64,000 bases of DNA from Pocillopora verrucosa. Its lineage: Eukaryota; Cnidaria; Anthozoa; Scleractinia; Pocilloporidae. Location: positions 17,189,598 to 17,253,597 of the forward strand of contig NC_089321.1 of assembly GCF_036669915.1 (NCBI RefSeq), given 5' to 3'. The translations under genes were made by a program, and so were the position numbers. Below are positions 11,501-51,992 of this stretch, piece after piece. The notes under the pieces were generated by a model. The model made no database searches. It saw nothing but the letters and a program-made list of their open reading frames with translations, and had not been told where the DNA came from. The stretch's first letter is position 1. Every line of letters begins with the position of its first letter.

Positions 11501-12633
11501 TGTGATGAGAATAAAGACCAATATAAATTAGGGTTGTTCTTTGGTCCAAAACCAAATTGTCCAAGTTAACAGAAAGATTTCCAGATTTCATGGAAAAAGA
11601 GAAATAAAACACAAAACGATAGGACAAAATCATTACATGCTTAGTTTATTTGAAAGTATTTAAATGGGGATCCAGGTGTGCCAAAGGGGAAAGGAGGTTG
11701 TTGTTACATTCAGAAAACTTTTGTCTCTTGTGTTCAAGACATAGCTCCTTTACATTTAGAGAACTATCAATTGAGGGTGTCTTTTAGGAGCGATGATGAA
11801 GTGATTACAGATCACTACATCCACATGTGACAACATTGAAAAATCAATTAAGGTAGCAAGTTACAGTGTAGTTGGTCATCCCTTTTATCTCATCAAGGTT
11901 ATCATTTTAAGCCCAACAAGATTGGCCAGTGATGGAGGTTTAAATTATAATTTTTATGACTAAAATGCTCATCATGGGAGTCATAATAAACATAGGTGAT
12001 TGTAGCTGATTAGTCAGCAAAGTGGACTGACCAACTGAGTAATTTGGTCTCATCAACTGAGTTGATAATGTAATTAAATCAGCCAATAGCGATTACAAGT
12101 AAGGGCTAACACAAAGGGTTCACTCTTGAAACATCAGCTTTAGAACTGATGGTGGCCAATTCACATCATCAATTCAGTTTACATACATACATACATACAT
12201 ACATTTATACATACATACATACATACATACATACATACATTTAACATACAGTTTTTAAAACCAAATTATCTTTTATTGCCCAACACTGATGCAGCACCAC
12301 AGTTTCTTTAGAAACATCTCTGTTATTCATTAATCAATTGAGTAGCTTATTATTACTGTTTTGTAGGTCCATTTTGGTTGATTTTTTTTTTCTTCAATTT
12401 TATCCTTATTATTTTAGTTACATTATGAGATGATCCTGATTGCTGGTAAGCCTGCAGGTAATGTGATATGCAGTGAGGCTAAAACACAGAAGGTGGACCT
12501 TGTTATAACTGGTTGCCGTGGACTGAGCAAAGCTAGACGTACAATCCTTGGAAGTGTTAGTGACTATGTAGTGCACCACAGTGGCCTTCCTGTCTGTGTA
12601 GTACCTCCTCCTTTAAAAAAACATGACCAATGA
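8555..12633 (+). CDS. Universal stress protein (UspA family), copy 2
   Basis: Four exons, 8555-8639, 9674-9763, 11240-11343 and 12418-12633, join in phase to 164 residues. Intron phases are 1, 1 and 0, and intron positions in the protein match those of the gene at 3362, so the two arose by tandem duplication. The N-terminal strand is ILIAVDGSEH. The ATP-binding signature is intact: G125-x2-G128-x9-G138-S139, followed by VSDYVVHH. The copies differ clearly in the middle, especially in the third exon, and this one ends in a lysine-rich PPPLKKHDQ tail instead of histidines, so the duplication is not recent. The role is presumably cytosolic ATP-binding stress response, by family. Confidence 0.9.
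10506..10674. repeat. Family A element, reverse orientation
   Basis: A copy of the CCCTTTMACTCCCA-ended element in intron 2 of the second stress-protein gene, reading CTTTAACCCCCATGACGATC at its left end and GAGATCTGGAAGTGAAAGAG at its right. It is about 40 bp shorter than the copy at 5302 and carries several substitutions, so it is an older insertion. Confidence 0.5.
10785..11150. repeat. Dispersed repeat, family G, copy 2
   Basis: The second copy of the repeat described at 7205-7680, in the same orientation, just upstream of exon 3 of the second stress-protein gene. It shares the GTTTGTTCAAATTC and CAAATTCCCCAC blocks with that copy. Confidence 0.5.
11428..11590. repeat. Family A element, degraded copy
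   Basis: Begins CCCTCTTTTAAACTCCAATGAG and continues with the family's AAGACAGAATTTATCCTCACAATATC block and the AATTGTCC block. The right terminus is lost or strongly diverged. It lies in intron 3 of the second stress-protein gene. Confidence 0.5.
12113..12180. repeat. Family E repeat, decayed fragment
   Basis: The sequence around CTTGAAACATCAGCTTTAGAA...TGGTGGCCAATTCACATCATCAATTCAG is a diverged match to the block at 26325-26405 (CTCGAAACGTTCGCTTTAGAAAC...GGTGGCCAATATACGTTATC). It is one of several copies of this dispersed family in the window. Confidence 0.5.
12181..12243. repeat. Microsatellite (ACAT)n
   Basis: An interrupted ACAT/TACA tetranucleotide tandem repeat of about 60 bases, broken once by TTTATACAT in the middle. 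It directly abuts the decayed family E fragment. This is a likely polymorphic locus. Confidence 0.9.
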
Positions 12634-14148: not shown

Positions 14149-14324
14149 TTAAGATTTTTCTGAGCGAGAACTGGCACTAGATGTTTCTTTAGCCCCGCTC
14201 CGTCTCCTTCTCCCCAGCCCTCGCCGTGAAGCACCGCGGCCTCCTCTTCCTCTTCTCACTGATGAACTTTTGGTAGGACTTGGTGACTCTAAATCATGAA
14301 CAAGAAAATTCGCATCTATAACTT
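14149..14324 (-). other. Exon 6: RG-rich C-terminal tail
   Basis: The acceptor CACCAG places this exon in phase 1 with exon 5. After EVIDANFLVHDLESPSPTKS the tail is strongly basic, with RRGRGGRGASRRG and then RRRR, and it ends in a Ser-rich RSEKS. RG/RGG tails bind RNA and are arginine-methylated; they occur in germ-granule and silencing proteins. An alternative acceptor, TTTAG at about 14295-14299, would shift the frame, so I prefer 14324. Reading through the exon 5 donor would give a shorter protein ending at 14447. Confidence 0.65.
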
Positions 14325-17300
14325 CTGGTGAGAACTTGAAAGTGTGCTTGATAATGATGAACTCTCACTCTCTCTCACTCTCTTCAGGTATTTCATCTTT
14401 TTTTTTTCCCTCTTTTTCGATTTGTATTTTATACCACTGTGATACATTAAAAGTTGAATGACGTGAGATTGAGTATTACTGAGAATTCACCTGTCATGTT
14501 TTCTTGGGGACAGTCACGAGCTAGTTTATTCTCGTCAACCCAGTTGATCCACGCTTTCCATAATTCACAATGTTCAAGGGTCTTCTTGTTTCCAATCACA
14601 ATCATTCCTCTACGGGCTCGAGTCAAAAGCACGTTCATTCGTTTATCGTCATTCAAAAAACCGATGAACCCGTGCTCGTTGCAACGTACGGCGGAGAACA
14701 CGATAACGTCACGTTCTTGTCCCTGGAATCCATCCACTGTTCTGACTGAGACATTTCCAAGATTTTTTTGTTTCATCTTATCCAAGATCAACTTAAGCTG
14801 CGCTTGGTAGGGTGTAATTACACCTATCCCGTCACTAGTCACGTCTCCTGCTTTGAGAAGATCACTGACCAATTCACACACTAGTCCGGCCTCAAAATCG
14901 TTCGACTTGGACGACCCCTTGCTCTTTTCCATTGCCGAATGTGGCGTGTTAAGGAGTGCTACAGGCATCTTCTCGTTTGGCCATATGAATCCAACAGGGG
15001 CTTTCCTCTCCGACTCAGTCACACCATCCTCAAGCTTATCATCATAAAATTGACATGATGGAAACCGCGCTATGGATGGGTGCATTCTGTATTGAATACT
15101 GAGCATGCGTACAGGAACTCCCACTTGGCGAAGCCGTGAGAACATGGAACATGTCAGCTGGTCTGGACCTTTAGCAAACTCGCTTAGCACCATAGGAGGA
15201 AGCTGCTGATCATCTCCTTAAAGATGCGGAATAAAACAGATTGAGCTTACAACACTTTAACTATTAAAACAGATGTGTTGCAAAGAATCTACAGATCACG
15301 TTTTGCATTTCGATTTTGGTTGTTGCAAAAAGGCGGATCAAACCATTTATTACTAAGCTGCTCTAAGGAAGTCATTGCTCTTCTCCCAAGAAACGTCCCC
15401 TCCCCTGAGAAAAACATTCTTTATTCTCTTATGATAGATTTGTTTCGGTATCGTTTGCCAACGTTCGATGATCACTGGCCAGAGTTACATTACTCATTTC
15501 TTCAAGTGGGTTTTGTGGGGAAGAGAGTAACTACTTTCTAAAAAAATCATAGAGAGAGAGAGAGATTAGCATCGCCCCCAATTTACTTTCCCTTTGTTTT
15601 TTACCCTCGCCAAGAAACAAAATTATCCTCCTCGATTTCTCCATCAGTGAGAGGGTTTTAATGTGATAATCTGGTTTCGTCATTTCAATAGAGACTAGTG
15701 GTTATTCTTTGGCATTCAGATTTTCAATTGCTCGGTAGCTTTGGATAGAGGAATATCGGCTCCAAGAAATTGCATTCAACTGAATTAGGGTGTGGGTTTT
15801 AAGGCACTACATGGGAGAAAGAGCTACGTTTGCATCGTCCCTAATACTTTATGTGAGAAAACAGCGGATTTCTCTTATCTCTTCTCAGTAACTTACCCAC
15901 TAATACAAGCTTCTCGCAGCCATGTGAAAGAGGAACAAGGATTGCTGGTTCGGTAGCCTGTGAGGCCTCATCGACCAAAACTCGCTTGAACACGAACCCA
16001 TCAAGTAAGGACGACCCTGCACTAATAAGAGTAGTGCAAACAATTTTGCAACTTTCCAGAATCTTCCTTGCCATTTTTTTGTCGATTCGGCCATTGGGGT
16101 CTTTCTTTCCAGACTTTATTTGCGAGTATTTAAACTCAAAGGTCAAATGATTTATGTCCTTGGACACTTTCCACCCTGAGCTTCCAAAGCGAACAATCTC
16201 CTCATTTTGTAAGCCATGATCCAAAAGCTTCTTTAAGAGGTTGTCGACACCCTCGTTTGTCTCAGCTACAAGAAGAACTTTGTCATGGCTGCTAAGAAGC
16301 CAGCGTTTCACAATCTCTGCGCTCGTGATGGTCTTCCCAGAGCCCGGAGGCCCCTGTATAAGGGTTATGGAGGCGTCAGTGCAAGTGGCATCCTGAACAG
16401 CTGAATTTTGACTTTTGTTACCAGACCACTTTGAGAAGGAACAAGCTGATGAAAAAGTGCTGGTTTCTCCATCTGTTCTCACGACACTTGGACCTGAGAA
16501 AGAGAAAGTTTTTGACATCTTCAACTATTAACTGCATGCAAGAATTACTTTCTTGAAAGTTTTTTTCAGTTTTCATTTGAAACTGAGAGTTCACTAAGAT
16601 GTGATAGAAAGGGACCCAACTCACGATAAGATCGCTGCCTTTTGCTATGTTGTATCGATAACATTAGCACCAATTTGCATTATGCAAAGATCTTGGTTTT
16701 AATAAGCGAAAAAGTTCACATTTTGCCATGCTCTTGAAAGAAACAGGAAGACATAATTTGATGAAACCGATACTGGAAAACATACCAATCTTCGTTGTAG
16801 AGCCTTTATCTACTTGCTTCCTTGAATCTTGACTTGAAAGGTCGTCAACACAGAAACTGCCGACGATTCCTTCAAGAATATTCTGCCCATATTTCGTTGC
16901 GCCTTGAAGAGCTTTCAGTGCTGCTGAAGTGCGTCTGTATCCAACAAGACTAGGAAATTTGTAAAGATACCACCTTCCTTTAAGAATGTTTTCCCTTGAA
17001 GAGTCATCTGAACTTGTTGGCCACACTATGTCAACTGTTAGTATTGTTCCACAGATTTCTGTCACTTCACCGATGTATTCACGTTTTGAAATATCTGATC
17101 GACTGAGGGCCACGCCATCTCGCACACGGAATGATTGAGTACCTCTTGTAATTACCATTGTAAATTTTAGTTCTTGTTCATTACATGGAGTAGCTTCAGC
17201 CGTGATACGGTAACGTGAGAAGACTCCTTGAGATGCTATAACTGCTTGCTGCACCTCCTCTAGTGACTCTAAAGTTACCAGGAAAATCCAGTGCAGAAAG

Positions 17301-20300
17301 TACGGTAAGGCATTCGGGTGGCAAGTGAAGCCTTCCAAGGGCAGATGACCTACATGCAAAATTTAAAAGGATTCAATTTCTTTCAAATTAAAATCTATCA
17401 CAGAAGTAATTTTTTAAACCCGCACATTTGTTGGTGTTCCCGGAAGAACTCGCTTTCATGACCTGACAATGCTTAGGTTTAACCGCACCGGAAAAAGTTT
17501 GAAGTCGTCTAGGTCGATTACTTTCTTGCATGGTAAAGCAGCACAGACATAATCGATATAACGTAGATTGAGAATGTGATTTACCATCTTTTCCCTTCTT
17601 TGTTAACCTCTTGTTATGTTTGTCGGATTTCATCACATGGGTGTAGCACAAAACTCTTTGCTCCCCGGTTGGTTACGATTTTATCGTTAGTCTTCTCTCT
17701 ATTTGGTGTCGATAAATTATGTGTTATTTTACATATTTTAGAATTCCTGGACGTACGATTGTGACTTTTATCATTGTTATCATTGTTACTGACTTACCTT
17801 TGCAGATGACTTGAACAACGCGGCATCCGGTGGAATGGTCATTTCCAAGAAGCACAGCATCGAATACCTTATACATTTGATCGACACTGAAAATGACCTG
17901 TCTCTTCCATAAAGACTCGAGACATCGCTTAAATCGTGCGAGAAGCGTGATGTGAACATTCTCGCCGAGGACAACGTCAAGATTGAGTTCCTGTAGCCCG
18001 CTAAGCAAACAGATTAGGAGATTTTTGTAATGGTCGGGTGTCCCTAATGAAATATCTGGAGAGGACCGCCAAAGAACGGACTCCAAATGGCAAGCTATGT
18101 GATGCTTCTCCTGCACAAAATATCAAAGAAGGAAACAAGGCTTCTTAAAGAACTTGTTACCATGGATCATGAAATTAGCGGTAGTCAAGTCTTAACACAA
18201 TAAATGATAATATATCTGCCCCCCCCCCCTTGCTCAACATGCAAGAAAAACAAGTCATTTAACGTAGACCTCGTTCAATTGATGCCACGATGGCAGATAA
18301 AAAGGGAAGAACGGGCTATTTTTATCGCCGGATGTACTATAACTCTTTGCTTCCGCCACCTTTACAAATCAAATATTGCCGAAATGCAGAAAACGACTAT
18401 TACAAACCTTTTCGTCAGATGAAGAAGTCATTCTGTCGCATATTTCTTCCAAATGACTAGTTTGTAAACATCCCCTTTCCAACAGGTCTTGAACTCTTAT
18501 GATATTTCTGTCCAAATCACTAACCGACTCTTCAGGGTCACACTGAAGGTCTGGAAAATTACTCCTGTGGTAGACGAATTCTTCTTGCTTTTCGTTACTT
18601 CCAGAAGGTGTTTGGATGTTTGATTCACCCTCTAGTGAGTCCGCATTTCCAACGGATAGTTTTGAGGAAAGTTTCTGAATCTTGTGACCAGGATCGAAAT
18701 GATCATAAACACAGAAAGCCTCCAACTCAAGCAACTTCTCTCTTCGAAGTCGAGTTTGAAAATCTCGCGGCAAACTCGACTTAAAACGATCAAGAGCCAC
18801 ACTCATGATGGGTGCACGATCGTTTTCATCTTCCTTTAAACAGATAAACGTGTTCTGTTTTTTTCCTGTGTAGATGTCTAGTCGTCGACCATCCAAAGCA
18901 AAACTGTAGCCGGCATTTAGCTGCAGAAAATGTCTCTCTGATGACTGAACATGTACTGAACAAAAGGCCTGAGCGACGTTTTCCTCCTCATCTAGAGTCA
19001 GCACTTCACAAAGGTTTAGTGGAACTGACATCGCCAAAGAAATGACCCACTGTATATCTCCAAGCAAAAATTTGAATACGAGCAGTTTTTCAAGGGACGA
19101 GATCAGGATATTGTGAAGTACCTTCCAAGACAATTCTTCACCCTCTGTTCTGTACAGAAGACGCCAGCGCTTCTCGTGGCCACGTCTAACTTTGATAGTT
19201 CCGATGTCGTCTCTAGAAAGAATTCGAGATTGGTGAAGGGGATTGAGAAGGGACTCTAGATCCGCCATTGGAATGTCTGCTGGTAGACATCTGCACTGTT
19301 CCCGACTAAACCGGGAGAAGTCAATTAGGTGAATGTACTCTTCAATGCATCTTTCTTTGTTGGGTTGCTGGCACCACTTGTATAGATACCGAAACAATCT
19401 GTACTCACTAAGCCGTGACTCTTGGTTGGATAACAAAGCAAGCATGTCTTCCTCCTCAAAATCCTCCACCTTTCCAGTCGCTACATCTTCTATCATCTGG
19501 TCTCTTTCGAATAATTTTGCCCTTTGGTACAATTTTTGCCAGACGAATTCTTCATTTTTTCCATCCTTTGTCGGAGCTTGCAAAATATGTTCCTTGATTT
19601 CAACTCTCTCGCCAGTTTTAGCAGCGTCAATGGCACGAGAGAACAAGGCTGCGACAATCTTACATTCTGTAGAGTTGATTCCTTTACTATCCGCCCATTT
19701 GTCAAACAAATTGTCCAGCTTGCCAACAACAGCATTACTGTATTTAGCAAAATACTTCAGAAAATCATCTTGCGTGAGATTTGTTCTTTTAGCAGAATTA
19801 GCTGCAGGATATTGGCTTGGCTCTGTTCCTTTTTTCGGAACGAGTTCTTCATCCCAGCAAACGAAGAATTTGTCCCCATCAAGATCACTTCCAGCAATCT
19901 CATCGGGGTGTGGACGACTTCCTTGTGTTGGAAAAACAATGCAGTCTACTAGATGACGGCATTCAGGAATGTCGGTGCATCGCAAAATCCGGATATCGCC
20001 TGGATGATAGCAAGGATTTTTAACCACCACCACGCGTGTTTCTGTCAAGATCTTGGGGCTTCCTCGTATCGTTGGCTGAAAGAAGACCGTTGTGGCTCTC
20101 AACTGCCCTGATGGATCGCAAATGCCGTAAACATTCCTTGATTTCTCAATGGGAATTTTCAGCTTCAATGCAGCAGACTTTTTAGTTTTGTGCAATGGAT
20201 TCGGTTTAGATGGTTGAGGTTCCCTGACCCGGTTACGCAATTTTATAAGTTGTTTCTTAGTTTTCGTGTCTATTTTTCCTGTTTTTAACAAATTCTCTGC

Positions 20301-21317
20301 CAGTTCAAACTCTTCATTTGCGCACAAGAACTTAAAAGCAACTTCATGGGCTGTGGTAATCTCTTTAAGTTCCTTGAAGTACTCTTCTTGCTTTTTCAAG
20401 AAGACCTCATCGGAAATACCAAGCGCTGATAAAAGCATGATATACTGTTTGTTCAACGAGCCAATTTCATTCGGCCTTGAGAAGCCCCGGTCGACAATGC
20501 CAAGGAGATGGGGTCCAGAAAGTTTCCACGCAAATTTCTCCATTGAAGGGCGGATTTGGATTCCCTCTTCCAAGCAATCATTGTGGCATAGTACTCCTTT
20601 GCATCCCTTCAGGCGGACCTGAAATACTGACGGTATCGCTGGTGACTTGATGCCTTCATACAAAGTTTCCAGGTTCAAACTCTCAGTCACTTTCAATGCG
20701 CATTTAGTTGATATAAAACCACATCCGTCGGTAAAATTGTACTTGTCTCGTTCTACGTCATCCACAACGCCTATTTGATCTTCGGGAATACTGCACGCAG
20801 GCTTTGCAGTCGAGAACAGCAACCCGACTCTAGCAGCTCTTTTGGCAACATCTTGAATTTTCTCAAAGTTCCCAAAACGGCTCAAAATCTCCTTCACGCT
20901 ACCTTGCTTCTCGTTGTAAAGAACACAAGTTCTTTCTCGGAGCTGACTGGCACTGTGGCCAAAGAATGTAAATCTCTCTTCAGTAAAATCCTCTTTACAT
21001 CTAAGAATGACGCCGTGTGTAAGGAACTTCGACACGGCATCAAACCGCGTTGAAGGGCCGAAGTGAACAACCAGAAAGTTGGCAGGATCATACTCACGAT
21101 ACAAAGGGCAAGGGCTGTTTTTTGTATCATGTACAACTTCACAAGTGAAATCCTTCCATTCCAATTTCTTGTCATCTCGAGCTCGTCTGCTAACATTTAC
21201 TGTTATGGTTTTTACTGCAATACATTGACTATCTGCGACACCTCTTTCCTTCCGCCGTGGGAAGTCAATCAAGGGACGAACATCATCTTTACTTTTCACC
21301 ACTTGCTTAAATTCCAT
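14149..21317 (-). CDS. RNA-dependent RNA polymerase fused to UPF1-like SF1 helicase
   Basis: Six exons on the minus strand: 21317-18408, 18110-17798, 17349-16786, 16493-15897, 15216-14491 and 14324-14149. All introns are GT/AG, with phases 0,1,1,1,1. They join to 5286 nt, 1761 residues plus TAA. Residues ~75-640 are a cellular (QDE-1/EGO-1/RDR type) RdRP. Residues ~1130-1700 are an SF1 helicase with UPF1/IGHMBP2-like 1B and two RecA domains. Residues ~1705-1761 are an RG-rich tail. All catalytic motifs of both enzymes are intact. An in-frame TAA 12 bases upstream makes the Met at 21317 the first possible start. The predicted role is synthesis of dsRNA on RNA templates, with helicase-assisted template handling, in small-RNA silencing or antiviral RNAi, probably cytoplasmic. 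No AATAAA or new promoter-like start separates the two halves in the 297-nt intron between them. The fusion is inferred from the sequence; a transcript spanning it would prove it. Confidence 0.85.
14491..18110 (-). other. Exons 2-5: linker and SF1 helicase module
   Basis: Exon 2 and the first half of exon 3 (about residues 971-1130) encode a helical linker of unknown function. Exon 3 then has a 1B/stalk-like segment (VRDGVALSRSD...YIGEVTEICGTILTVD...GYRRTSAALKAL). Exons 4 and 5 carry the full motif set: Q-motif NKSQNSAV (1288-1295), motif I GPPGSGKT (1310-1317), motif II D1437-E-A-S, motif III GDDQQLPP (1462-1469), motif IV-like Q1503-Y-R-M-H-P, motif V region D1623-GFQGQE and motif VI NVLLTRARR (1656-1664). 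These are UPF1-like SF1B signatures (the UPF1, SETX, IGHMBP2, ZNFX1, Hrr1 clade), distinct from the SF2 Dicer-type helicases fused to Dictyostelium RdRPs. Confidence 0.9.
15217..15896 (-). other. Intron 4 of the RdRP-helicase gene
   Basis: A 680-nt intron with donor GTAAGT and acceptor TTTAAG that splits the helicase between motifs II and III, inside codon G1462. It contains an AG dinucleotide run near 15553-15565. An 88-codon plus-strand frame here has no recognisable motif and I do not treat it as a gene. Confidence 0.7.
18408..21317 (-). other. Exon 1: complete cellular RdRP module
   Basis: A single 2910-nt exon encodes residues 1-970. After a short, non-conserved N-terminus of about 75 residues it has the order expected of Pfam RdRP (PF05183): FFGHSASQLRERTC (~118-131), KRAARVGLLFST, FTDGCGFIS (195-203), NPCYHPGDIRILR (434-446), DCIVFPTQGSRPHPDEIAGS and the metal-binding D478-L-D480-G-D482. 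This double-psi beta-barrel type active site is that of eukaryotic silencing RdRPs, unlike the GDD palm of RNA viruses. Residues ~640-970 are a C-terminal extension with no motif I recognise. Read without splicing, the frame stops 12 codons after the donor, at 18369. Confidence 0.93.
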
Positions 21318-22589
21318 GAATTCTAATTAGCTGAGCCAACTCCTGATTCAAAGAAAGTGTGCAGTATTTTAAGCTTCGCCTGTCTGCAACACCGTATAGA
21401 GCAGATACTGTCTCTATCGATCGACAGTACGGGTGTCATGCAATGAAGATAGGCATCAACGTAATCAGGTAGAAACAGTAGCTAACAGTTTGAGACATGA
21501 TATTGAAGTTTGTCATTTGCATAATCAACACTGTTTTGGATCCATTACTCAGGATATAATTACCAAAATTTATCAACGGTTACTGATGTTATTACCCCGT
21601 TTTGACCGACGATTTTGCATTACTGAGCATTTGAAGAGAGTTTACTCTTTCCAAATCAACTTTAAATTTTCTTTTGTCAGAATTTTAGCATGTTTCGCTT
21701 TAGCGAAAAATTATTCCAGCCGCATGAAAAAACTGCTCAGATATTGTAAACGTTAACTTACCAAACTAGTTAAAGATTCCCGAGGAAATCCTTGACGAAA
21801 GGATGGGGGCAACCGCGTAGCGTGGAATCAAACGCAATGAAATCGGCTCAATTCGTTAGCAGTTTCCCATACGCGGAAGTTCTTTGGCTACTGAAAAGTT
21901 CCTTGAAATCACTGAAACTACAAAACACAACTACTCGATCACAGGATTAATTCCCCAAAAGATGATGCGAGATATCTGTTATTTCATCGCACTCGGTTAA
22001 ATCTTTTAAATGATAAAATATTATCAAGTCTTTCCGGGAAAAAAGATTGTGTTCTATTCCCCGAAATCACGTGATGTTTTGAGACTTCAATCTAAAGATG
22101 AGGGTCGGGTAAGTGAGGATTTCGGAACCTGAATACATCAATATCGTTGATGTTTTGATATCTTCTATCTGAGTAAATTACTGATAATAGTGCGCGATTG
22201 TAGAATTAATAGGATAAAAGGCAGTCAAGAAATCTCGGTACATCAATTCTTCCTTATCGCGTTTTGCCCTTCCGGGTGGTGGTGAGTGAGTTGATTAACG
22301 ATTTTACATATTAAATGTCAGTTTTCAAACCTGCTTACCAAAGCGTAAAGGGAAAATATCGGGGAAAATAACAGGGAAATAACAGAGAAAATAGAACCAC
22401 ATAGGATTTAATTTTCGATGCACAAATTTATAAAGGTGTGCTTCGTTTATTAATACCGGTTTATGATTGATATTTGATGGCTTGATAAATGGTGGTAAAA
22501 TTTAAAGACTCTTCAAACAATCCGGCTTTGTGGCTACAACCAGTAAGTCGAAACTAGTTATACTTCAACTGCTGCATTTCGTGTTCACA
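21318..22589. promoter_or_regulatory. Divergent promoter region, RdRP-helicase / P-loop gene
   Basis: The RdRP-helicase gene starts leftward at 21317 and the P-loop gene rightward at 22590, so 1.27 kb contains both promoters. I see no TATA box in a convincing place. A CTTCCGGGTGGTGGTGAGTG stretch at about 22268 has an ETS-like core (TTCCGG) and could be the end of a 5' non-coding exon of the P-loop gene. A 107-codon frame at 21433-21756 has no motif and is unlikely to be coding. Confidence 0.35.
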
Positions 22590-24785
22590 ATGCTTCGAGT
22601 CTTCATCTGTGGAGCTCACAGTGTTGGTAAAACAACCTTAGTGAACGAAGTTGGAAAGCGGTTAAACTTACATGTGGAAGCTGAAGTTGCTCGAAAAGTG
22701 ATCACGGATTTAAATCTTCGACGAGAAGATTTTGACCCAAAGACTAATCCATCGAAGTTCGAAGAGCTTCAGGAAAGAATTCTCGAAGCACAATGTAAAG
22801 TCGAGGAACAGCATTCGAGAAGTGGGACGCCGTACATAGCAGATCGAGGAATTGATCCATTGGTTTATTCTTTGATGTACCTGGGAGAAAATAGCATGAA
22901 AGGACTGTTGAGTTTGCCGTCAAGCCAAGAGTGCATAAGCAGGTGAGCTTTACAATCATGTAAAATACCAAAAATAAAAGTAAGAATTCAGTTAAATTCT
23001 TTATTGATAACAGTCAGTTAAGGCTTGATAGGCTATTTGACTATGAAAGATTCTCAAAGTAAGAAGTTTGTTTATTGTCATGGTAGTTTCTTGACGATGG
23101 TGGTCCGACATTTCCTGATGTTACGCGTTCTCCAACGAAGCGGAAAGCTCATCATATGATAAGCCGTTGACACACATTATTACATAACTAAAATAAAGTT
23201 CACATGATGATCACTTCGCGTTCTGTCTAATTGACATGTTTATAGTGATGCTTTGACTCAGAGAAAATCTATCGAGACGGAAAAGAAATAACTCTGAGAT
23301 TACACGCTCAAATTATTCAATGCTTCAAGTGCATTTGCATATACAAAACCGATCATTCTTTTTGACAACAAAGTCTGCTTTTCTCTGAGATGTACGAGAT
23401 GCTGTTTCGCTACACTTGCTAGAGCTAATTAAAGTCAGGCGAGCTATAGTTTAATAACAGACGATAAAATCTCCTGATACCTGTAACAGATTCACCTAGT
23501 CGAAACAATAGATATTATCTCTCGAGGTTCTACATTTGCTTGATTTGCTCCAAAGACGTTACTATAAACTTGAACTTGAGCGATCGTCAATTTCTAGCAT
23601 ATGGTTCACGCAAATCTCAATTTTCCGAATTTTTAAGGACAGTATCTTTCCCCTTTTAAACCTATCGTAGTATAATCAGTATTTCCATCTGATGGCTCAT
23701 CATTAACAAGACACTTCAGTCATGGGGTTTTTATGCGACACTCAAAGTTTCTCTGAAGGAGTCTTATGAGACTACAAAAACAATTAATATAACAATAAAA
23801 GTTGCTTAAGAGCATTAGACACCACACAGATAGATCATACCTCCGTGGGCTTTGTCTTTAAGGTTTTATTTTTAGAGCTCGACTTTCGTGGTGGCCTGGT
23901 CTGCGTTTGTCAGCTGACATTCCCAAAAGTTTCTGGTTACCTTTAACTTCGTGCTCGATGAATGTCATTCAAAAGGGAACATCAAGTGTTTTTGTGGTTC
24001 ATTTGCGCAAGTCTCGTAAAAGTATTTGGATTTGTGCTCTTATAGGAGATGTTAAATTTTTCAATATCAATAAGCCCACATGCCCATTTGTGAGGTATAA
24101 AAATGGAAACTCGAGCCAGAAGACGAGATAAATGGATCAACTGATTAGGGTATTATACTGAAGTTCCAGCAGGTATACAGGCAATGTAAGAGTTGAAAAG
24201 ACAGGCTTAGTAGACTTCTGATGTCTTCTGCGAAGCGTGATTCAGTCCAACGGCTTTTCACCTATGTACATCTCAACAAAAAATTAATCGAAATATAAGC
24301 CAGTTGATTCTCGAGTCTAGTGATGGCTACGATGTCAGATTATATTAGCTGAATCAATTGAAAACAAGCCGAGCTGTGAGGAAATACGTAGTATTCAAAG
24401 AACGTTGCCAAACGGGATCATAACAGGGGCATATCCGGTCATGTGACGCTTTCAGACCAATCGCTTACGAGAAAAAAATATTTGACGGATTATAGTGCTT
24501 CTTATGTTTTATTCCAGGTATAGGACTTCCTTAGTGTTCGTAGTGCGACCCTTCCCAGAATGCTTGCAGACCGATAGCATTCGCCTCGTTCCGAAGATGG
24601 AGGACCTGCTAAACTTCACAAACCTGATGGAGGAAGTTCTTCAGGGCAACAGAATCCCGTATACCGTCATCGACGTGTTAGACCTGAAGAAAAGAGTTGA
24701 TATTATTCAAGAGAAAATAATGGAATGCGGAAGCCTGAGAGTTGTTGCAAGGACGGATGGAGACACCTTAAATCGAGATGATTAG
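22590..24785 (+). CDS. P-loop NTPase, AAA_28/NadR-like
   Basis: Two exons, 22590-22942 and 24518-24785, joined within an Arg codon (AG|G), give 206 residues. The first ATG is at 22590, since the open frame upstream starts only with GTG. The protein opens directly with the nucleotide-binding loop: VFICGAHSVGKTT, Walker A G8-x4-GKT. It then has a helical segment ending EEQHSRSGTPYIADRG, where the DRG corresponds to the AAA_28 catalytic/Walker B-like region, and FVVRPFPECLQTDSIRLVP in the second exon. AAA_28 (PF13521) includes the ATP-binding domain of NadR ribosylnicotinamide kinase and uncharacterised eukaryotic proteins. I infer a small-molecule or nucleotide kinase-like cytosolic enzyme; the substrate is unknown. 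The gene is divergent from the RdRP gene but no functional link is evident. Confidence 0.75.
22943..24517 (+). other. Intron of the P-loop gene
   Basis: A 1575-nt intron, donor GTGAGC and acceptor TATTCCAG. No open frame with a motif and no element from the repeat families seen elsewhere in the window. I see nothing else in it. Confidence 0.6.
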
Positions 24786-30219: not shown

Positions 30220-30229
30220 ATAAACCCCA

Positions 30230-31030
30230 ATGATGCAGAAAAAGGGATCTGAGCCTGATTTTACAGAGCCATGGCATCTTAGTGATTCTGTCCTTGTTGT
30301 TGAGGAGAAGAAGTTCCATGTTCACAAGGGTACTTTATCCATGTGGTCACCAGTGTTTGAAAGAATGTTCTCCTCAGAGTTCAAAGAAAAATTTGCAAGT
30401 GAGATTCCTCTTCCAGGAAAGAATGCCTCTGAAATAAAGGAGCTGTTGCTTGTCATTTACCCAACATCAAAACCAATTGGTGAAAACAACTGTTACTTCC
30501 TTCTTCCCTTGGCAAGAGAGTATCAAATGGAGCAACTCACAGAACGCTGTGAAAAGTATCTGCTACAGAGAGAAAAGACTCCTCACCAGGCTATTGACTT
30601 CCTTGTATTAGCTAATGAGTTTAACATGGAGGAATTGTGCAAACAATGTGTTGAAATTGCTAAACACATGTCAATATCAGAAGTGCGACGTCATGAGAAA
30701 TATGCCATGATTGCTCCAGAGGAGGGCAGACAATTGGCTGAAAGGAGAGTGGAGTTACTTGAGAACAAGATGCAAAGCAGTGAGCAAAGGGTGAATTCTG
30801 TAAAGAAAGAAGTCAAAGATGTGTGTGAGTGGGGAGTAAGGGAACTGGGACGGGTTTTGTATCAGAAGAAATACCCAGAAGGAAGACGAATTCCACGTGC
30901 TGTTAGTGATTGTACAAAGCTTTTAGAGGAAACAGCAGTGGAAAGTGTCGAGGTTGCTGTCATGATACAGTTGGTACAACATCGCCTTCGAAGTATCTAT
31001 GAGCCAATGTACAGTAATAATCAAAAATAA
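30230..31030 (+). CDS. BTB/POZ domain protein with coiled coil
   Basis: A single coding exon of 266 residues; the start is the first of two adjacent ATGs, ten bases after a strong acceptor. Residues ~15-115 form a BTB/POZ fold: the DSVLVVEEKKFHVHKGTLSMWSPVF core, then FKEKFASEIPLPG, and the usual C-terminal helices LPLAREYQMEQLTERCEKYL. Residues ~116-160 look like the start of a BACK-type helical region. From ~165 there is a heptad-rich coiled coil (RQLAERRVELLENKMQSSEQ and on). No MATH, Kelch or zinc-finger domain is present. Such short BTB proteins commonly act as homodimeric adaptors, including for cullin-3 ligases; the partner here is unknown. The gene converges on ORC2. Confidence 0.85.
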   Translation: MMQKKGSEPDFTEPWHLSDSVLVVEEKKFHVHKGTLSMWSPVFERMFSSEFKEKFASEIPLPGKNASEIKELLLVIYPTSKPIGENNCYFLLPLAREYQMEQLTERCEKYLLQREKTPHQAIDFLVLANEFNMEELCKQCVEIAKHMSISEVRRHEKYAMIAPEEGRQLAERRVELLENKMQSSEQRVNSVKKEVKDVCEWGVRELGRVLYQKKYPEGRRIPRAVSDCTKLLEETAVESVEVAVMIQLVQHRLRSIYEPMYSNNQK

Positions 31031-49300: not shown

Positions 49301-51992
49301 AAGGTAATTTGGTATCATCAAGTGAGTTGATAACGTAAAATAGGCCACTGTTGCGAGTTTAAAATCTAAAGTTTCGAGCGTTAGTCCTTCGTCAGAGCAA
49401 ATGGGGGAATTGTGGGTTGTGTGTCTGTTTATATGCGGAATATGGAGTTACACTATTGGTGGGAGCATGGTAACGATACAACAAAAATAAAATAGTTGAC
49501 TGTAAGATCTCAAAAAAAATTAAAGCAAACAAACGAGAAAACAACAACACCACAAAACACGAGAAAAAAAACAAAACAGGTTCCGTATAAAAAGATGCTT
49601 CTTTTTTAATTCTCAAGACTTGGACGAATGTGCTGACGGAACACACAACTGTGATGTGAATGCTGAGTGTAACAATACCCGGGGATCGTACAATGCAAGT
49701 GTAAAGATGGATTTCGTGGAAATGGAACCAAATGCACAGGTAACTGTTTATAACATATCATTCTATCTTATCTCTCCATATTTTTCTGGTGGACATAGCA
49801 CCAGACTTAAACTTGTACAAGAGTGTAATGTCCCTAATTTCTGTACGGTATTCTACCGGCAGCAGGCCCAGCAGAACGAGCCCATCAGCATAAGAGACGT
49901 TATTCAGTGGGTAATTAAGAATAAAACTTAGTCAGAGACCTTTGGATTTTCTCAATTAATGCTCCATGTATGACTGTATAATAAAGAGACCCATAGGCAG
50001 GAGCATTATTCAAGTTTGGGTCTGACCACAGGACAGCACAGCAGCTTCCTTATCTAAACGTCATTGACATCGCGGAAAACTCGCCTGATTCACGAAAGGT
50101 TTTGTTGGCCTTTGAGGTGATTTCTCTGCATGCTCTGCCCATTGGAGATCACGGGAATCAGTGATGCTTAGGTCTTAAGCGTAAGGTACACACTCGAGCG
50201 ATGTCCATCAAGGTCAACCAGGAGTTTTCTTCTTAAAGATGTGAACGAATTTGCATTTTGCAGCGTTGAAAGCTATGCAGCTTGGTAAATTTACCAGTTT
50301 CCGAGGAGTTACCAGCAAGAGTGACAGCATATTTGCGGTTGAAAGTAGATTCTATGTTCATTACCAGAGCCAGTGCGAAGATACCGTCATGAAGATAACC
50401 ATATCTGCCGAATTTACAGGAATACTTTTTTTTAGTGGGATTAGCTGGTGTGCAACTTCGTTGGCAATACCCAAAGCGAATTTGACAATTAATTTCTTAG
50501 CAGTACGATGCAAATTTACCCCTTTCATTTTTGCGATAACTTTCCCTTTCATTTTGCGATATACAGGATTTACAGCAGTGTTTACAACTCTTGGTAAGAG
50601 TGGAACTACGGGTCCAGTCCAAATTGGAAGTCACTACGCAGGTCAGGATCACGACGGGCAAAGTTACATTGTCCAGCGGTATTCAACAATGGACTGTGCC
50701 ACACACTGGCGAATACAGAATAGAAGCAATAGGAGCCTCAGGGGGGTACGGTGAGGACAGTATCATCAAGAACGGTGGAAGAGGGGCACGAATGATTGGA
50801 AACTTTATTTTGACCAAAGATGAGATCATTCATATACTTGTTGGTCAAAAGGGGAAAAAGAAGGAAAAAAAACTTAAAAACTGCTGGAGGTGGTGGAGGT
50901 ACATTTGTTGTGAGACGAAACAAACACGCCTTTAATCATAGCTGGAGGTGGAGGGGGAATCAAAAATATGTCAGAACAACATCCGGGATGTGATGCGTCC
51001 CATAAACACCACTGCAAATGCAGGGAACAACTCGCCACTGGGATCAGGGGAATAGAAGGACAAGGAGGACTTACTAATGGTGTGAATTCTGGTTGGTGGA
51101 GAATTTGCTTTTTATAATATACTGAGAAATTTGTTGCATTCTACTGCCATCCTTCACTATCTCTAACCCAATGATAGAGTAAGTCGCTGATAATCAGATT
51201 TTGAAGGATGTATAAAAACCGTAATTATCAAAATTCTCAATGTTAATTTTAGTTATTAATTAAGATTTTTCTTTGATGATTCTTGGAAGTGCCTCCTACA
51301 AGACTTAAGATTCTGTTAAATTTTGCTCTTTTCTTTTCAAATTTCCTGCATATTTATATAATTATCGACATCGATCCGCGAATATACCGCAGGAGATGAC
51401 ATCGAAAAACTTGACAAGCTTCTCATTCGTCAGTTGCGGATCTGGATTAAACAGAAGCATTAAATAAAGAGTTAATTGCAGCATTTTTACGCTGACTTTT
51501 GTCCTCATAAGCTTTTTTGTTACTAACAATCTCCACTAATTAAACTTTCCAAAAATCAAGAACTAAAGTACAGTTTCGGAACACTGCGGATCGTCGTTTG
51601 ATCGCAAGAAATTAAATTTATGGGTGCTATTTGTAAGAGAATCACTGATCACTTTTTGATTGTACTGTAGGTGGTGGTGGTGGCGGCTTCCATAGTAATG
51701 GACATGATGCAACGAGCTCTGGTAAAGGAGGGGGAAAAGGAGGTTCAGGATATCTTCAGGGGGGGGGAAGGGTGGAGGGTTTTTTGGTGGGTTCGGAGGT
51801 GGCGGTGGTTTACATTTTTTCAACAAGGGACCGGGCGGTGGTGGTGGTTACACTGGGGGAAGTGGCGGGGCTAATGATGATATTTCCTGTGGGGGAGGGG
51901 GAGGATCTTTTAACAATGGAACAAATCAACAAAATGAATGTTGCTATAATAGCGCTGGTCATGGTTGGGTAAATATTACATTTCTCCGATGA
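46301..51992 (+). CDS. Secreted PAN-EGF-glycine-rich protein, frame-broken
   Basis: Exons I can place: 46301-46364 (signal peptide MLSVLYYFVLIVLASLIPEG), 47731-48012 (PAN/apple domain, with DLCRLQCYLEPNCVSYNF and CDLNNAT), 48455-48577, 48740-48861, 49182-49303 and 49618-49739 (EGF-like, three of them calcium-binding D-(I/L)-DEC type), 50567-51079 and 51671-51992 (ALK/LTK-like glycine-rich domain: QQWTVPHTGEYRIEAIGASGG, GGGGGYTGGSGG, GHGWVNITFLR then TGA). Most junctions are canonical and phase 1. Yet each exon after the first contains at least one single-base frame break (for example near 47785, 47970, 48535, 48762, 49240, 49693, 50661, 50870, 50932 and 51768). Cysteines and splice sites are conserved, so the breaks may be assembly errors. 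The intact form would be an extracellular or matrix protein of a kind common in anthozoans; the role is unknown. Confidence 0.7.
46365..47730 (+). other. Intron 1 of the PAN-EGF gene
   Basis: The donor GTAAGA and the acceptor TTGTTCACCAG are shared exactly with the second gene copy at 62704-63999. A 101-codon frame at 47184-47489 is not kept open in that copy, so I treat it as chance. Confidence 0.7.
48862..49181 (+). repeat. Duplicated EGF intron with family E repeat, copy 1
   Basis: This intron and the next (49304-49617) are near-identical over most of their length, including the GTTTCGAGCG...TTAGTCCTTCGTCAGAGC block and GGTTCCGTATAAAAGATGC before the acceptor. With the flanking EGF exons this defines a tandem repeat unit of about 436-442 bp. 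Confidence 0.8.
49304..49617 (+). repeat. Duplicated EGF intron with family E repeat, copy 2
   Basis: The second copy of the intron at 48862-49181. It differs by scattered substitutions and small indels only, so the exon-intron unit was duplicated recently compared with the other exons. Confidence 0.8.
49740..50566 (+). other. Intron between the EGF and glycine-rich exons
   Basis: Donor GTAACT, acceptor ATATACAG. A 167-codon frame starting at 50251 overlaps its right part, but only its final third (from GFTAVFTTLGKSG at 50567) has the glycine-rich domain's lead-in. The remainder has no motif. I see no further EGF-like exon. Confidence 0.5.
51080..51670 (+). other. Last intron of the PAN-EGF gene
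   Basis: Donor GTGTGAATT, acceptor TACTGTAG, joining AAT G|GT in phase 1 within the glycine-rich domain. AT-rich; nothing else is seen. Confidence 0.6.

Follow-up and report, generated by a model that had tools for sequence, protein, structure and literature searches.

A coral RNA-dependent RNA polymerase predicted in one chain with a TLDc-fold domain and a UPF1-like helicase, and a divergent kinase gene beside it

RNA-dependent RNA polymerases (RdRPs) of the Dictyostelium type are fused to a Dicer-like SF2 helicase, whereas the RdRP of the coral Pocillopora verrucosa described here is fused to an SF1 helicase. Plant RDR2 and fungal QDE-1, which share the polymerase fold with the coral RdRP part, have to our knowledge no TLDc, helicase or kinase part, and we know of no TLDc protein (NCOA7, OXR1/2, mEAK7, TBC1D24 or Rtc5) that is joined to a polymerase, nor of any member of the fusion family whose activity, product or localisation has been described. 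An RdRP works with an SF1 helicase, as in the coral protein, in Rdp1-Hrr1-Cid12 of S. pombe and ZNFX-1/EGO-1 of C. elegans: Hrr1 partners an RdRP, and EGO-1, likewise an RdRP, co-purifies with ZNFX-1 (PMC9276528). As far as the accessible text of that paper goes, however, these are separate proteins with a helicase of the ZNFX1 kind, whereas the coral has a single chain whose helicase is nearest to UPF1 in the PDB. The combination of an RdRP with AAA_12 is already known from amphioxus, where it was shown in passing in 2019 for Branchiostoma lanceolatum BL02069 (Fig 1B legend, Pinzon et al., PMC6396948). That legend names AAA_12 alone; the available text of the paper does not use the word "helicase" and makes no mention of TLDc, of the kinase or of a spread across animals. 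The same text holds that animal RdRPs outside nematodes are common and often lost, and that those of amphioxus are not tied to RNAi. A literature search directed at other terms returned no description of TLDc or kinase parts of animal RdRPs.

Within the window, i.e., the whole 64,000-nucleotide stretch of NC_089321.1 that was analysed and in which all positions are counted, a minus-strand gene runs from 21317 to 14149 in six exons, with all five introns GT...AG. Exon 1 (18408..21317, minus strand like every feature of this gene) codes for residues 1-970, which hold the RdRP, BACK-like helices, a TLDc-fold domain and the start of a linker. The linker, which belongs to no known family in exon 2 (17798..18110), continues into exon 3 (16786..17349) together with the region N-terminal to the helicase core. 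Exon 4 (15897..16493) carries helicase motifs I (GPPGSGKT) and II (DEAS), exon 5 (14491..15216) the motifs GDDQQLPP, QYRM, VDGFQGQE and LTRAR, and exon 6 (14149..14324) an RG-rich C-terminal tail and the stop. Translation of this predicted splice pattern gives 5286 nt of joined exons, in frame, and 1761 aa with a single terminal stop, in agreement with the preliminary description, which had proposed six in-phase exons and one 1761-residue protein. The joint between exons 1 and 2 (18408/18110) is uninterrupted in two relatives, the Stylophora prediction P0002 and P0003. The latter, 68% identical to the coral protein, is an open frame of 1764 residues on a contig of 5860 bases; since this contig has no room for such introns, P0003 is probably a spliced cDNA. 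Three of the five junctions (after residues 970, 1074 and 1461) align cleanly with relatives, while that after residue 1262 lies inside a variable loop of the alignment, and the exon 5/6 junction (after residue 1703) is the weakest, its sole support being the RG-rich tail in common with relatives. Overall, the predicted gene model and the frames of relatives confirm that the fused coral protein is real. Chance or a chimera as the source of the fusion is ruled out by the joined frame, the motifs and the continuous relatives.

The RdRP domain (PF05183, residues 70-582, 19572..21110, minus strand) is matched by Pfam at E 9e-115, with 385 bits against a cut-off of 23.8. Its catalytic DLDGD occupies residues 478-482 (19872..19886, minus strand), and D478, D480 and D482 are invariant in an alignment with 38 relatives. 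In the predicted structure, residues about 12-615 take the fold of plant RDR2 and QDE-1, including the two-barrel polymerase fold. The cellular RdRP read earlier in residues 1-970 is thus borne out by Pfam, motif and fold, which indicate an intact enzyme for which RNA-templated synthesis is predicted. At the other coral RdRP loci (L002-L008), no helicase, TLDc-region or kinase match was found within 3.4-4.6 kb at each.

The second enzyme in the chain is a full SF1 helicase, as had been claimed, with a complete motif set (GPPGSGKT starting at residue 1310, DEAS at 1437, GDDQQLPP at 1462, QYRM at 1503, TVDGFQGQE at 1621 and LTRAR at 1659) and Pfam matches far past chance to AAA_11 (E 7e-43) and AAA_12 (residues 1483-1673, E 5e-60). 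Against PDB chains, its bit scores are 248.7 for UPF1, 168 for SEN1, 143 for SMUBP-2 and 132 for ZNFX1 (chain 9q9z, which falls under UPF1, SEN1, DNA2 and SMUBP-2), a comparison by bit score among the chains matched, of which Hrr1 is not one. No NFX1-type zinc finger is among the seven Pfam families found in the coral protein, and the zinc-binding domain of UPF1 is likewise absent among its Pfam matches. These data classify the coral helicase, by sequence, as UPF1-like SF1. Free-standing helicases of this type, like UPF1 itself, share all core motifs with it but carry no fused polymerase; the best of them match at 326-347 bits, and the ten among 114 that have an organism name are all archaeal. 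PADLOC applied to P0003 returned 12 families, every one inside the helicase part. A candidate 1B-like domain in exon 3 was dropped, with no Pfam match and an alignment to a free-standing helicase of -3 bits.

Residues 691-873 (18699..19247, minus strand) have a TLDc fold by Foldseek and VIA-align, in common with NCOA7, OXR1/2, mEAK7, TBC1D24 and Rtc5, at 8-17% identity in the structural matches. This is the fold of the V-ATPase-binding proteins NCOA7, Oxr1 and mEAK7; binding by NCOA7B, mEAK7, Oxr1 and Rtc5 is taken from how their complexes are titled in the PDB. The Pfam TLD gathering score is missed (15.9-19.2 bits vs 24.5). At E 1 the family matches 3 of 16 pieces of the region, and at E 0.05 no more than 5 of 30 full-length proteins; profile A4 searched against the PDB by sequence found no TLDc chain, only one ribosomal chain (E 0.78). 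Based on the score below cut-off and the 3/16 matches, this is a diverged TLDc-fold domain and not a standard member. Immediately before it lies a tentative BACK-like helical segment (residues 622-690, 19248..19454, minus strand), suggested by helices in the model and by a weak Pfam BACK match (E 0.15) in one of 16 members. An RdRP head at residues 583-860, considered at first in the analysis, was rejected on the fold search. Both the TLDc-fold domain and the neighbouring kinase gene had been missed by the first reading of the sequence.

The kinase gene (22590-24785, plus strand) is divergent from the fusion gene and codes for 206 aa matching AAA_28. Exon 1 (22590..22942, plus strand) contains the P-loop GAHSVGKT and ExAR and DRG motifs, and exon 2 with the stop (24518..24785, plus strand) completes a NadR-like nucleoside/nucleotide kinase fold. 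The 1272 bp between the two start codons (21318..22589) possibly act as a shared promoter. In a structure model built for P0122, which is 88% identical to the coral kinase, fold and P-loop match NadR ribosylnicotinamide kinase, thymidylate kinases and deoxynucleoside kinases at 9-20% identity; the NCBIfam NadR equivalog, which models the longer NadR enzyme, is missed at 38.7 bits against a cut-off of 341.15. Of the 102 RdRP-helicase proteins, 60 carry a relative of this kinase at their N-terminus. Such fusions occur in sponges, bivalves and a bdelloid, whereas corals have the kinase as a separate divergent gene. Among the 60 fused kinases, 51 show the P-loop pattern and 45 the DR pattern; part of the set may thus have diverged or lost activity. 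None of the kinase matches listed is named as amphioxus.

The preliminary description could not tell whether the architecture was already catalogued; it is widespread among animals, in addition to the amphioxus RdRP with AAA_12 drawn in 2019. RdRP followed by helicase was found in 102 of 121 proteins examined, from corals, an octocoral, amphioxus, crinoids, rotifers, bivalves and sponges. Ten of 15 organism-named matches are labelled uncharacterized protein, and members thus become immediately recognisable among the proteins of corals, Branchiostoma, sponges and rotifers. Reversed domain order, considered for distant matches with about 45% coverage, occurs in 0 of 102. No relative with RdRP and helicase as separate genes was seen among the 120 matches listed, 17 of which are frames of exon-1 length with the downstream DNA beyond view; an 18th match, P0024, contains two segments of RdRP but nothing that matches a helicase. 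No viral or prokaryotic relatives were found by tblastn in 12 viral and 64 genome stretches selected by pattern, a search that reaches pattern-bearing sequences only. The RdRP and helicase trees have one deep split in common (clades A and B), and therefore the two parts travelled together. When UPF1 and ten free-standing helicases are included, the fusion helicases form a single group with weak support (62/56, mixture model), so a single fusion event is likely from these sequences, yet not demonstrated by that tree. Clade labels in the careful helicase tree were taken from earlier trees of the same proteins. EukProt P0031, which lacks two helicase patterns, moves from clade B in the quick helicase tree to clade A in the careful one, and Adineta P0069 belongs to neither clade in the quick RdRP tree. 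The amphioxus fusions P0018, P0019 and P0021, one of which is presumably BL02069, group with the coral protein in one clade.

UPF1 moves 5' to 3', and by kinship the coral helicase should do the same. From the observed protein, domain order, motifs, folds, conservation and kinase link, we infer a direction of work, a docking, a product and a purpose. The polymerase part would copy an RNA template, and the tethered helicase, travelling 5' to 3' on the product, the same way as the polymerase, would peel the product off or strip proteins from it, making a long-copying enzyme. The TLDc part may dock the enzyme on a platform of membrane or protein, the enzyme may have as partner a NadR-like kinase of small molecules or nucleotides, and the output would feed a dsRNA/antiviral response, not secondary siRNAs of the C. 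elegans type. We give a probability of about 50% to this reading, i.e., an old animal multi-enzyme RdRP with polymerase, BACK-like helices, TLDc fold, UPF1-like helicase, RG-rich tail and NadR-like kinase partner that works as proposed.

Alternatively, the protein could do in one chain what the RdRP complex does in fission yeast, its helicase acting as Hrr1 or ZNFX-1 while secondary small RNAs amplify silencing. The precedents of Hrr1 with an RdRP and of ZNFX-1 with EGO-1 speak for it, as do the joint rise of RNAi genes and RdRPs upon poly(I:C) in Nematostella, and the RdRP-dependent small RNAs reported in the accessible parts of the tick study (PMC10062562) and inferred in that on dust mites (PMC5805368). 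Against it are the ZNFX1 score far under UPF1 and the missing zinc finger, and the available text on Nematostella, which has four RdRPs with the fusion member not singled out, reports no secondary siRNAs detected (PMC12768352), while that on amphioxus reports no siRNA-like population (PMC6396948). We find it unlikely, although an analogy of role may exist. Of the "covalent Rdp1-Hrr1 in an animal" first proposed, one fused protein with both motif sets intact stands, but homology to that pair is not supported because the helicase scores as UPF1-like and not ZNFX1-like, and the secondary small-RNA role is disfavoured by the cnidarian and amphioxus reports.

It is rather improbable that the helicase clears the template instead, by unfolding or by removal of proteins or ribosomes without peeling off product, so that long dsRNA feeds Dicer or RIG-I-like receptors. 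UPF1-type helicases do remodel RNA-protein complexes, but a 5'-to-3' motor on the template would oppose the polymerase, and no product is known. A receptor of this kind, RLRb, binds long dsRNA in Nematostella, according to the accessible part of PMC8476169.

That the kinase is an unrelated coral neighbour gained independently elsewhere, with the TLDc fold a spacer and the core RdRP plus helicase, appears equally doubtful. The fusion and the kinase of the octocoral Dendronephthya lie on scaffolds differing in length, no standalone kinase outside cnidarians is found by name among the kinase matches listed, and the TLDc sequence is highly diverged. But chance would hardly place one kinase family both beside this enzyme and within it, the standalone kinases align with the fused ones across the domain in a single tree (66 rows), and the TLDc region is retained in both clades of fusion proteins. 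Finally, two neighbouring transcripts taken for one is a highly improbable source of the gene model: the in-frame stop at 18369-18371 inside the first intron means that retention of this intron would yield a 982-residue RdRP-TLDc-only protein, but P0003 (on a contig of 5860 bases) and P0015 (5453 bases) have uninterrupted frames, and named fused models are known from several phyla.

Beyond the preliminary description, the analysis adds the TLDc fold, the divergent kinase gene and the common deep split of the RdRP and helicase trees. A more specific version of the multi-enzyme reading, which we hold to be a long shot, is that animals inherited a kinase-RdRP-TLDc-helicase system that docks via TLDc on V-ATPase endolysosomes, copies viral or symbiont RNA to dsRNA or antisense, and arms RIG-I-like and RNAi defences without secondary siRNAs. 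The conserved architecture makes the question of what RdRPs do in animals testable, and gives a concrete handle on the role of RNA-copying polymerases in most animals. With a helicase in its chain, the enzyme should make a product unlike that of a bare RdRP; the fused or adjoining kinase predicts a co-factor with few candidate substrates, and for docking through the TLDc fold a specific partner, the V-ATPase, can be predicted beforehand.

In the window, six minus-strand exons (21317-14149) with GT-AG introns join in frame into a protein of 1761 residues with a single stop. Pfam places an RdRP at residues 70-582 (E 9e-115) and AAA_11/AAA_12 within the C-terminal third, and DLDGD and the helicase motifs are all intact, which bears out the in-phase RdRP plus SF1 helicase protein of the preliminary description. 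Of all RdRP matches in the genome (353 Mb, 52 contigs, with the window on C10), the one at 19572-21110 is the strongest. Among the matches listed, the closest one bearing an organism name comes from Stylophora pistillata, at 86% across 88% of the length. The exon 1/2 joint (18408/18110), previously held doubtful, is unbroken in the alignment of P0003, P0015 and the Stylophora and Dendronephthya models. P0003 is an open frame of 1764 residues on a contig of 5860 bases, with 68% identity over 99% of the window protein, and P0015 has 1745 residues on a contig of 5453 bases; both contigs are too short for introns of this kind and were therefore taken for cDNA. The least certain of all joints is that of exons 5 and 6 (14491/14324). 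Intron 1 holds an in-frame stop at 18369-18371; a transcript retaining this intron would encode RdRP and TLDc but no helicase, which may be a second isoform.

The architecture is not unique to the coral; RdRP-helicase fusions occur in anthozoans, amphioxus and further phyla. Among 121 proteins (exon 1 and 120 listed of 415 significant matches), 102 carry RdRP followed by helicase, and the order is broken in none. Named carriers among the matches listed include Stylophora, Dendronephthya, three Branchiostoma species, Anneissia and Antedon, as well as Brachionus, Adineta, Ephydatia, Dysidea, Oopsacas, Mercenaria and Mya; one further carrier is a EukProt entry. The other 19 comprise exon 1, the crinoid protein P0024 (Anneissia japonica, 1730 aa) and 17 frames between 968 and 1051 residues long, most likely genomic readings of relatives' exon 1. 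P0024, a predicted protein, has two RdRP segments, each followed by a TLDc-region match, and no helicase match; it may reflect tandem duplication or a merged gene model. Pattern scans found both DxDGD and motif II in all 102 fusion proteins, Walker A in 99, Q.RM in 97, QG.E in 96 and TRA in 98, with all six patterns together in 88/102; some misses are due to truncated models (P0002, P0029) or the strictness of the patterns. Amphioxus RdRP plus AAA_12, there a domain name, appears in a 2019 figure legend (PMC6396948).

Judged by its sequence, the helicase is UPF1-like. Against PDB it scored 248.7 bits with UPF1, 228 with NAM7, 168 with SEN1, 153 with DNA2, 143 with SMUBP-2 and 132 with ZNFX1, which gives no support to the ZNFX1/Hrr1 kinship proposed earlier. 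In a larger search (best 120 of 1147 matches), the top six probably represent fragments of fusions, and the remaining 114 (P0171-P0284) are free-standing helicases at 326-347 bits, above human UPF1; all 10 of these bearing an organism name are archaeal. The fusion helicase apparently forms a subfamily of its own.

Mixture-model trees of 33 rows chosen from 103 separate clade A (cnidarians, amphioxus, crinoids, Brachionus, EukProt), without the fused NadR-like kinase, from clade B (sponges, bivalves, Adineta and others), with it in 15/20. This split is supported at 100/100 by RdRP+TLDc and at 94/99 by the helicase; the deepest split is therefore the same in both halves. With eleven helicases as outgroup (UPF1 plus ten free-standing ones, of which three are archaeal by name), the fusion helicases group only weakly under the mixture model (62/56); a quick tree gave 92. 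Considering also the common domain order and TLDc region, one fusion event is the simplest reading of these sequences, though not proven. The helicase of P0170 (Nymphon striatum, a sea spider, 817 aa), annotated as Regulator of nonsense transcripts 1, falls within clade A, and P0170 probably represents a fragment of this fusion. P0069 from the bdelloid Adineta steineri has the complete order kinase-RdRP-helicase. Bdelloids are described as having a mean of 38.9 RdRP copies, the majority in clades of unclear origin (PMC7943196), and these divergent clades may be this fusion family. Exon 6 (14149-14324, minus strand) encodes an RG-rich C-terminus; such tails (4-9 RG per last 60 residues) occur in 7/10 clade A proteins examined, namely the window's protein, P0003, P0015, P0016, P0018, P0019 and P0023, but not P0021, P0026 or P0031, and in 2/10 of clade B.

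The coral genome contains 35 exon-level RdRP matches, including a cluster of RdRP-like genes (L002-L006) at C2:14468322-14543228 (genome G000) and further loci on C11 (17.66, 17.94 and 17.96 Mb) and C1 (36.12 Mb). Within the window, a BTB/POZ reading frame (30224-31027) lies downstream of the separate kinase gene, and frames matching universal stress protein, calcium-binding EGF and ALK/LTK glycine-rich sequences lie at 12418-12633, 49524-49928 and 50540-50932, respectively.

The secondary small-RNA machine envisaged in the preliminary description sits poorly with the literature, as far as the consulted portions of these papers go. Nematostella has four RdRPs, yet secondary siRNAs were not detected (PMC12768352), and no siRNA-like population was found in amphioxus (PMC6396948). 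On the other hand, small RNAs are reported to be tied to RdRP in a tick (PMC10062562), and such a tie is inferred in dust mites (PMC5805368). Three of the four Nematostella RdRPs are induced by a viral mimic (PMC8476169).

We suggest that the fusion enzyme may act as an RNA copier whose helicase part would handle the product or the template of copying. The known polarity of the UPF1 helicase provides the basis for its direction: if shared, the helicase would move along the product strand with the polymerase and on the template against it, so that product release would be its more natural role. The TLDc part may dock the enzyme, and the output would serve a dsRNA response.
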